DNA of 64,000 nucleotides. It comes from an uncultured Bacteroidota bacterium (GTDB lineage: Bacteria > Bacteroidota > Bacteroidia > Bacteroidales > VadinHA17). Where the stretch lies: the NCBI GenBank assembly GCA_903844815.1, contig CAIMVD010000205.1, positions 62,001 through 126,000 of the forward strand, read 5' to 3'. Of this stretch, positions 61,294 through 64,000 are shown piece by piece. The notes under the pieces are model-generated. The model saw nothing but the letters and a program-made list of their open reading frames with translations, did no database searches and was not told the origin of the DNA. The first letter of the stretch is position 1. Every line of letters begins with the position of its first letter. Both the position numbers and the translations under genes were made by a program.

Positions 61294-61324
61294 ACTCCCG
61301 CAGCTTACTGCGGGAGTTTTTTTT
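61294..61324 (+). terminator. Rho-independent terminator after tRNA-Ser
   Basis: Perfect 10-bp stem ACTCCCGCAG (61294-61303) with CTGCGGGAGT (61308-61317), a 4-base loop and eight T. It abuts the stop of the convergent pdxA-like gene (61323). Confidence 0.9.
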
Positions 61325-62318
61325 ACCCTGCAAGCCTCACTGCCAGCTTAATAGCCTCAATCATACTTCCATCACTGGCTTTACCCTGCCAGGCTATCTC
61401 AAAAGCAGTTCCATGATCAACTGATGTTCGGACAAAAGGCAGACCTACAGTTACGTTAACTCCGCTATTAAAACCAAGAAGTTTCAATGGAATATGCCCC
61501 TGATCGTGGTACATTGCAACAACAATATCATAACGCCCTTTGACCGCCTGTAAGAATACTGTATCGGGAGGAAAAGGGCCTTCAACATTTATACCCCGTC
61601 CCTTCATATTTTTAACAGCAGGTACAATCTCCATAATTTCTTCATTGCCAAACATTCCGTTCTCCCCTGCATGTGGATTTAACCCTGCTACAGCAATTCT
61701 TGGTTCTCCGCCGCATAGTATTTTCATTGTACCATAAGCAAGTTCAATCACCCTCTCTATCCTTTCCCTTCTTAACCCGGTAATAGATTCCATTAAGGAT
61801 ACATGGGTTGAAACATGAATAACACTCAGTTTCTTATCATACAGAAGCATTGCATAATTCATGGTACCTGTAAGATCAGCCAGTATCTCAGTATGCCCCG
61901 GATACTTATGCCCTGCCATGTGCAACGCTTCCTTGTTCAGCGGGGCTGTGACAATTGCACCTATCTCCCCATTCCTGGCGAGTTCAATCGCTTTTCTGAT
62001 ACATTCAAAAGCTGCATTACCTGACCCTGGCTGGAGTATTGCTGGCTGGAATTCATTCATATTGACAAGCTGCAAATCAAGGATATTCAACAGCCCCCTA
62101 TCAAACTTACAATCAGAAATATTTCGAACCACATTCAATCTGAATGATTTTATATTCAGGATCGAATATGATGCCGCCATAATATTGAAGTCAGCGATAA
62201 TGACCACTTTTTTGCTACTTATTATGGATTTTTCAAAACTTTTCAGAATGATTTCAGGGCCTATACCGGAAGGATCACCCATTGTAATTCCACAGATTAT
62301 TGATTTTCGATTAGCCAT
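61323..62318 (-). CDS. PdxA-family 4-hydroxythreonine-4-phosphate-type dehydrogenase (likely PdxA2)
   Basis: NAD-dependent dehydrogenase of the PdxA fold, 331 residues: ITMGDPSGIGPEI at the start, APLNKEALHMAGHKYPGHTE with a metal His, AVAGLNPHAGENGMFG and VVAMYHDQGHIPLKLLGF. Canonical PdxA makes pyridoxal phosphate; the PdxA2 subgroup oxidises 4-phospho-D-threonate or -erythronate. The next gene upstream is a DUF1537-type four-carbon acid sugar kinase fused to a KdgT-type permease, and such kinases are the known partners of PdxA2 (Salmonella, from memory), so PdxA2 is favoured. The 177-base gap to the kinase contains a heptamer array, so co-transcription is likely but not certain. Confidence 0.82.
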   Translation of the reverse strand: MANRKSIICGITMGDPSGIGPEIILKSFEKSIISSKKVVIIADFNIMAASYSILNIKSFRLNVVRNISDCKFDRGLLNILDLQLVNMNEFQPAILQPGSGNAAFECIRKAIELARNGEIGAIVTAPLNKEALHMAGHKYPGHTEILADLTGTMNYAMLLYDKKLSVIHVSTHVSLMESITGLRRERIERVIELAYGTMKILCGGEPRIAVAGLNPHAGENGMFGNEEIMEIVPAVKNMKGRGINVEGPFPPDTVFLQAVKGRYDIVVAMYHDQGHIPLKLLGFNSGVNVTVGLPFVRTSVDHGTAFEIAWQGKASDGSMIEAIKLAVRLAG

Positions 62319-62495: not shown

Positions 62496-64000
62496 TCAGG
62501 ATAAGAATTGTAATACCTTAGAGATCGTATCTTCTTTCCCGAAACCTCCTGCCTTTGAAACAACGATTATATGTTTGTATTGCTCGTCAGCAAAAGTGCC
62601 ATAGGGAACTCCTGGTAGTATTTCATCGAGAATGATCGTACCTGTGATCCCTAAACTCTGGGCAGCTTTTATTGCAGTGTCTCCGCCTGTGAAAAGTATC
62701 CCTCTTATTCTGACTTCATTAACCACCACCTTAGCTATCTCTCCCAAAAAAGAAGCTATTGTTTCACTCACTTCAAGCTTATTGAATCCATGTTTGCGAC
62801 CGTGCTCAATGCTTTCTTTCACACTCTCTCCGGAGGTTGCACTTCTCACAATAATATCTTCGCCTGTCATGGAGGAGTCCACAATGATATTCATGATTCT
62901 GGATTTTTCAGCTTCAGCATCTCCTGAAAACAATTTACAGGTTTCTACATCAATCAGCTTAACAGCTGCTTGCTTTGACGCCCATACAATCTGGTTCATG
63001 GTTATTTCGCTCACACTTCCTGCAATTACAATATTGCTGATCTTATCTTTTTTTATATTGAAATAAGACGGAAGATGAGCTGCAAAACCAGAAGTGCCTG
63101 CAAGCAATATTTTTACCTTAATTGCTGAAACTGCAGAAGCAATAGTCATGATATCTTTTTCATCCAAAGCATCTATAACTACTATGTCAATTCCGTTTGT
63201 TATCTGCTGGCTGATTTTAAGAATTAAATTCTCCTTTCCTGACAAAACATCGGAATAATGTATCACCTCTATCTTTTTATTGGTCTGCTGCGACAATATT
63301 CGAGGAATATATGATTCCCTGACTGGAGTTTTAGGATCGTTCGCCACTTCGGTATCAGCCAGCAAGACATCATTTACATACACATTTCCGTTTTTTGTGG
63401 TTCTTCTGTGCGATGGCAATGCAGGTACTAGAATTGTATGGTTGATCTCTAAAGAATCCATAAGAGCTGATATTTCTGCACCCGGGTTTCCCCTGAATGT
63501 AGAATCGAGTTTCTTATAGAGGTATTTTATGTTTTCAGCTCTAATTTTCTTACCAGTTTCAAATGTTTTTTTATAAGCCGTATCCTTATCGTCAAATCTG
63601 CTTTCAGTATCAACAACCAATACTTCACAATCTTTGAGCGATCTGCTTATTTGATCTTTATCTGAAATAACTATTGTCTTAAGTCTGCTCTTGCTGAACT
63701 GAACTCCTGTATCGGTGGCGCCTGTAAAATCATCCGCAACTATTACTAGTTTCTCTGTATGGCGTCTGTCAGGTGGTTCTGAATTAACTTCTCCTTTTGA
63801 TCTTCGACGTTTTGCTATAAATGCGGTTACAAGTGGAGTTAATATAGCAGTTGTAATTGTTGATGCAGCAATCTGAGGAGCAGCTATTGCTGAAAGGGCA
63901 GCAAACCCGGGATCTGCAAGAGCAACTGCAGCCGGTGTAGCAATGGCATTTCCTGCAGTGCTAGATGCTGCGGCTCCTGCAATACCGCTTCCTCCTGACA
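62496..64000 (-). CDS. KdgT-type permease fused to four-carbon acid sugar kinase (DUF1537), 5' end beyond window
   Basis: The reading frame is open to the window edge. Its C-terminal 425 or so residues are a four-carbon acid sugar kinase: [56 protein letters not shown] and [12 protein letters not shown]. Before it, without a stop or any in-frame ATG, GTG or TTG close to the kinase start, is [20 protein letters not shown] then [17 protein letters not shown], matching (from memory) the last transmembrane part of 2-keto-3-deoxygluconate permease KdgT. A basic linker ([20 protein letters not shown]) joins them. It would import an aldonate-type acid sugar and phosphorylate it; the PdxA2-like gene would then oxidise it. 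The permease N-terminus is outside the window. Confidence 0.85.

Follow-up and report, generated by a model that had tools for sequence, protein, structure and literature searches.

A KdgT-type permease and a DUF1537 kinase joined in one reading frame in three Bacteroidales assemblies

Introduction

In group translocation by the PTS, import and phosphorylation are carried out by one protein system. In KefC, a C-terminal soluble domain binds nucleotides and regulates ion flux. For four-carbon sugar acids, Zhang et al. are said to have described in 2016 a catabolism of D-threonate and D-erythronate with separate kdgT, DUF1537 kinase, and pdxA2 genes. An extract of PMC10079672 reports that the KdgT of Ralstonia imports D-threonate in E. 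coli and that growth of E. coli on D-threonate runs via dihydroxyacetone phosphate. A fusion between DUF1537 and a PLP-pathway gene is listed in an excerpt of PMC4921024 (Table 4), a paper citing Thiaville et al. 2016, and the KdgT Pfam family is assigned to clan CL0064 (CPA_AT) in an excerpt of PMC8562792. In the open-licence literature searched, we found neither a description of a KdgT–DUF1537 fusion nor any account of a secondary carrier fused with the kinase for its own substrate, in agreement with an earlier reading of this DNA from its sequence only, which had named no described example. Here we analyze such a fusion, located at the edge of a window (the whole stretch of 64,000 nucleotides under study, G000:C205:62001–126000) of the Bacteroidales genome G000.

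Results

One frame carries a complete permease and a complete kinase

The reverse frame at 63998–62496 of the window is open over 500 codons and closed by a TGA stop (62498–62496). The contig extends 3.7 kb past the window end (L002), and there the frame is completed by a start ATG at L002:3722 (window-equivalent 64721, outside the window), giving 741 codons. The sequence beyond 64000, which the sequence-only reading had proposed to inspect for a full KdgT domain, does contain one: Pfam places KdgT (PF03812) at residues 3–305, covering profile positions 1–305 of 305 (E 1.5e-117), and with 392.8 bits against a curated cut-off of 25 the protein belongs to the family at full length. It is followed by SBD_N (PF07005) at residues 325–550 (profile 1–230 of 230, 211 bits, E 2.6e-62) and NBD_C (PF17042) at residues 564–733 (profile 1–168 of 168, 107.4 bits, E 1.4e-30). 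SBD_N and then NBD_C, both complete and both above cut-off, make up a DUF1537 kinase, and the fusion in the window has this composition; its kinase half also aligns by sequence with the solved DUF1537 structures 4xfm, 4xfr, 1yzy, 3dqq, and 5dmh. At E <=0.001 the only Pfam domains detected in the fusion are KdgT, SBD_N, and NBD_C, with no PTS domain (EIIA/B/C or other). The features in the window are as follows.

62496..64000, reverse strand: fusion gene, in-window part (codons 242–741 and stop)
63807..64000, reverse strand: C-terminal part of KdgT, residues 242–305, with the last transmembrane helix (Pfam PF03812; helix 271–315 in the modelled L034 homologue)
63756..63806, reverse strand: basic, variable linker, residues 306–322 (no in-frame ATG, GTG, or TTG; low-confidence hinge 314–318 in the L034 model)
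63072..63749, reverse strand: kinase SBD_N, residues 325–550 (PF07005; alignment with 4xfm and 4xfr), with one 12-residue and one 11-residue marked stretch
62523..63032, reverse strand: kinase NBD_C, residues 564–733, with the TGGD and KAGGFG stretches (PF17042; structure alignment)
61323..62318, reverse strand: pdxA-like gene directly downstream of the fusion, probably encoding the 4-phosphate dehydrogenase of that pathway (PF04166, E 3.5e-104; TIGR00557 above cut-off)

The fusion recurs in two diverged assemblies

Homologues with both domains exist in two further assemblies, Bacteroidetes bacterium ADurb.Bin145 (G029, identical to L035) and Bacteroidales bacterium CSSed162cmB_75 (L034), each as one frame without stops. 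The window's fusion shares 60–62% protein identity with these two, with the joint in the same phase, and the fusion of a KdgT permease and a DUF1537 kinase in one frame is confirmed as real. The KdgT half of G000 is 76–77% identical to its two homologues, which are 76% identical to each other. Between the three fusions, pN and pS amount to 0.14–0.15 and 0.71–0.74 for KdgT, 0.28–0.32 and 0.72–0.80 for SBD_N, and 0.32–0.39 and 0.71–0.74 for NBD_C; synonymous sites are near saturation and both halves are under purifying selection. As a criterion of our own, we considered the columns that show at least 90% conservation among 61 stand-alone kinase and 81 stand-alone KdgT rows. The kinase columns are kept at 25 of 27 positions in G000 (which misses G346 and L524), 26 of 27 in L034, and 27 of 27 in L035, and the KdgT columns at 83, 83, and 84 of 85 positions, respectively. 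Both halves are maintained as working proteins; the linker only has to remain open.

The joint is open and largely a KdgT tail

As had been claimed, a single uninterrupted reverse frame leads from the last KdgT helix through a basic joint into the kinase, whose 14-residue beginning corresponds to residues 325–338. The linker between the KdgT and kinase domains measures about 17 residues in the window's fusion. Among the three fusions, the identity of residues 306–322 is 12% (G000 versus G029), 0% (G000 versus L034), and 33% in the remaining pair. The sequence-only reading had described this segment as an Arg-rich linker; it is indeed basic, but for the most part it is the tail that KdgT proteins normally have at their C-terminus, which in 81 stand-alone frames extends 4–33 residues (median 14) past position 305.

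The joint had also been described as devoid of start codons, and codons 286–367 of G000 contain no in-frame ATG, GTG, or TTG. A hidden internal start at one of these three codons was rejected on this ground for G000, where TTG 368 lies inside the kinase, beyond the DDFTGA motif. In the L034 fusion, GTG 288 belongs to the last helix, and the next of these three codons in frame is GTG 337; a CTG is present at 322. The G029 fusion has candidate internal starts at GTG 311 and ATG 325, and internal initiation would be possible there.

Gene neighborhood and putative substrate

Read 5′ to 3′, the fusion in G000 is preceded by genes for a GntP-family permease (445 aa) and then a LarA-like protein (415 aa), and is followed by one for a PdxA-like protein (331 aa). 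The LarA-like gene (L002:3742–4989, window-equivalent 64741–65988, outside the window) encodes a nickel-pincer isomerase of NCBIfam group 22, with 495 bits for a cut-off of 400. LarA-like proteins precede the fusion in G000 and the kinase in the genomes G089 and G064. In keeping with the gene set cited in the sequence-only reading, a pdxA-like gene follows the fusion in all three assemblies (the Pfam scan concerned the window's copy alone); the two genes overlap by four bases in G029 and L034 and are separated by 177 bases in G000.

The kinase half has its best NCBIfam match in the D-threonate kinase equivalog NF047819, yet stays below its cut-off (343.1 of 450 bits). Scores below cut-off were likewise obtained with the kdgT equivalog TIGR00793, a 2-keto-3-deoxygluconate transporter (275.2 of 453.8 bits), and with the D-threonate-4-phosphate dehydrogenase PRK03371, the best match of the PdxA-like protein (416 versus 583 bits). 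Since all three equivalog models score under cut-off, the substrate is not fixed; judged by these likenesses, it is probably D-threonate or D-erythronate. According to an extract of PMC11770544, in which group 22 is unnamed, the LarA superfamily has enzymes that act as C2 epimerases on 4-deoxy-threonate and 4-deoxy-erythronate. The LarA-like neighbor could therefore interconvert D-erythronate and D-threonate and, as a guess, may be a C2 epimerase that feeds the pathway.

Adjacent genes are common and fusions rare

Eight of the 117 genomes from the family of the window's genome matched the fusion protein, and two of these eight carry it fused (G000 and G029). In a same-genus relative (G067) the genes are apart, KdgT ending at L006:2472 and the kinase beginning with an ATG at 2480. 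Both G089 and G064 have LarA-like, kinase, and PdxA-like genes, named by sequence likeness, with kdgT absent between them, and inspection by eye of three frames in the 165 and 185 bases upstream of their kinases revealed no kdgT remnants. The run of G089, which belongs to the same genus as the window, consists of GntP (identified by Pfam), LarA-like, kinase, and PdxA-like genes; no KdgT was found in the G089 genome, and KdgT is therefore not needed there. Two further genomes, G092 and G093, gave weak matches to the fusion protein (E about 1e-4). In G073, a 254-residue frame (L008:1171–1935) comprises part of a mandelate-racemase-type N-terminal domain and a KdgT without about 114 internal residues, which is either a pseudogene or a misassembly.

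Scanning named genomes gave 243 confirmed KdgT-like loci, of which the best 80 were classified. Two are fused (L034 and L035), 41 have adjacent but separate genes with KdgT first, seven have both genes otherwise arranged, and 30 have KdgT alone within the stretch examined. Search patterns were drawn from the KdgT N-terminus, and fusions with a diverged start would escape them. The adjacency of kdgT and the kinase in 41 of these 80 loci indicates that the partners belong to one pathway. In eight of the 41 pairs the open frames share one phase and are separated by a single stop codon, an arrangement that would offer a ready route to fusion, which should therefore need little to arise. These same-phase pairs are L036, L037, L041, L043, L051, L068, L069, and L072. 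Even so, the fusion is rare within the sample, and we found it in no more than three assemblies.

We also searched samples drawn from the order (393 genomes), the class (395), and the phylum (395), which overlap and each include G000; with at most two candidates scored per genome, G000 alone gave a match over the full length. Long frames of about 690–800 residues with a weak match on the KdgT side were obtained in these samples and in G092 and G093. Of the plasmid records, 1608 gave a match, and in 29 of them a single place accounts for at least 80% of the query; the 12 rows listed all show a match split in two pieces, with permease and kinase named apart where annotated. Escherichia accounts for 221 of the 289 plasmid records with a KdgT-like match, and many of those listed are annotated kdgT.

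Careful trees were computed for KdgT with 18 of the 84 rows and for the kinase with 14 of the 64. The KdgT halves of the three fusions group together with weak support (77/89), and the three fused kinases form one clade with the kinases that stand alone in G089 and G064 (95/92). A branch of fused kinases only occurs in 0% of 200 bootstrap trees, and the corresponding constraint is not rejected (p-AU 0.165). Among the results listed for wider quick trees, the five-member kinase clade is found at 83, and the fused KdgTs together with a long-branched Arundinibacter KdgT at 95. On these trees, both one fusion with later loss of the KdgT half and two fusions remain as putative histories.

Predicted structure of a homologue

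The structure model is that of the L034 homologue rather than of the window's own protein and was computed from 88 aligned rows. It has a mean pLDDT of 92.4 and a pTM of 0.61, which fixes no arrangement of the two halves. The last KdgT helix (271–315) leads to a hinge (314–318, pLDDT <50) and then to the kinase. In Foldseek searches, this model matches solved DUF1537 proteins best (E 1e-26 to 3e-21). KefC, ASBT-type, and NapA-type carriers, which have the NhaA fold, are matched at E about 1e-5 to 1e-3; viral structures yielded nothing useful. The NhaA/ASBT-type fold and the basic tail argue for a cytoplasmic location of the KdgT C-terminus. Hydropathy plots of the KdgT halves, in which segments merged, were unused for topology.

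Discussion

From one frame with both domains complete and their conserved columns kept, in three assemblies and beside a pdxA-like gene, we propose as the probable reading a gene fusion, retained in evolution, between a KdgT-type permease and a four-carbon acid sugar kinase of the DUF1537 family; it would serve import, tethered phosphorylation by ATP, and then PdxA. The N-terminal half would have an NhaA/ASBT-type membrane fold, with its C-terminus expected in the cytoplasm, and the short helical extension and the hinge would position the kinase on the inner side of the membrane. The substrate imported by the permease would be a sugar acid with four carbons, D-threonate and D-erythronate being the likeliest; the tethered kinase would phosphorylate it with ATP, and PdxA would carry the phosphorylated product on towards dihydroxyacetone phosphate. 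We infer the substrate, the direction of transport, and the topology; the gain from the tether could be local capture, a fixed stoichiometry, or plain co-production. Phosphorylation traps the substrate without any fusion being needed, and the suggestion of the sequence-only reading that the fusion might trap substrate on entry finds no support beyond what two unlinked proteins would achieve.

The tether may also exist without coupling, the kdgT stop having been lost in a packed operon, with neutral co-production and two halves that work as if apart. We give this a chance somewhat short of even, and it concerns the gain only, overlapping with the preferred reading. It fits the genes being already adjacent in 41 of 80 loci, eight of these in phase and one stop apart, the unconstrained linker, with pairwise identities of 12%, 0%, and 33%, the low confidence of the hinge in the L034 model, and the G089 and G064 kinases of the same clade that stand alone; that the fused state has outlasted the saturation of synonymous sites would, however, be slightly unexpected if it were valueless.

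The import step of the preferred reading is less secure for the window's own copy. Asp143 is found in 77 of 84 KdgT rows (81 distinct) and Glu142-Ser143 in six, whereas G000 alone has Asn-Ala and lacks the acid at 142/143 that, as a criterion of our own, is near-universal in the gathered rows. The Ala codon 143 lies at L002:3294–3296 (window-equivalent 64293–64295, outside the window), and in the L034 model residue 143 sits at a helix break (136–142/145–154). The 142/143 pair presumably resembles the acidic pair of NhaA/NapA; the KdgT profile had no match up to E 10 among sequences of solved structures. Because the acidic residue is missing and the gene run also includes a GntP permease, the case for this KdgT as the importer is weakened. 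Of the sequence-only claim that import and phosphorylation are joined in one polypeptide, the joining of the domains stands, but import by this copy is in doubt: the KdgT half may act as a facilitator with the aid of the kinase, or as an anchor, or the substitution could be a consensus error. A KdgT half that has lost transport and remains as a membrane anchor or sensor, with the GntP permease two genes upstream as the importer, would agree with Ala143, against Asp or Glu142-Ser143 in the other 83 of 84 rows, and with the G089 run that has GntP without KdgT. We nevertheless consider it unlikely, as general decay is not seen: 83 of 85 conserved KdgT columns are retained, the 76–77% identity to the homologues is similar to their mutual 76%, the end branch of G000 (0.19) is like those of the homologues (0.17 and 0.21), and the other two fusions, L034 and L035, have kept Asp143.

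A bolder variant, to which we assign a slim chance, is that the tethered kinase and not an ion gradient drives accumulation, the acid-less KdgT acting as a facilitator and ATP phosphorylation at its inner mouth pulling the substrate in. If true, this would be group translocation achieved without PTS chemistry, and the lost acidic residue may be the proton-coupling residue of KdgT. That an assembly or sequencing artefact joined two genes is highly improbable, although the genome is a 411-contig assembly with 3.78% contamination, because the same in-phase joint is shared by two further, separate assemblies with diverged sequence, and a search of the G000 genome returned a single match each for KdgT and SBD_N, both in the fusion, hence no separate upstream gene such as the sequence-only reading had named as evidence against itself.

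Three natural fusions, G067 with its genes apart, and G089 and G064 without an adjoining kdgT provide a clean comparative test, which bears on whether tethering the kinase to the carrier alters uptake. The Asp143-to-Ala difference bears on whether the kinase can compensate for lost ion coupling.

Compared with known systems, the fusion is like PTS group translocation in bringing import and phosphorylation together, but it carries no PTS domain, and a group-translocation-like coupling of its phosphorylation to transport can only be surmised. Like the listed fusion of DUF1537 to a PLP pathway gene, it combines a DUF1537 kinase with a partner, which in that excerpt belongs to a B vitamin pathway and here is a transporter. 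In KefC-type CPA transporters (Foldseek hits 9emb and 8by2), too, a membrane domain with the NhaA fold precedes a soluble, nucleotide-binding domain at the C-terminus; the resemblance is one of fold only, the soluble domain regulating ion flux in KefC and being a metabolite kinase in the fusion. The separate kdgT, DUF1537 kinase, and pdxA2 genes belong to the same families and have the same kdgT-then-kinase order, an adjacent pair as in 41 of 80 loci. In the window's fusion, the kdgT stop and the kinase start are gone, and the two form one polypeptide.
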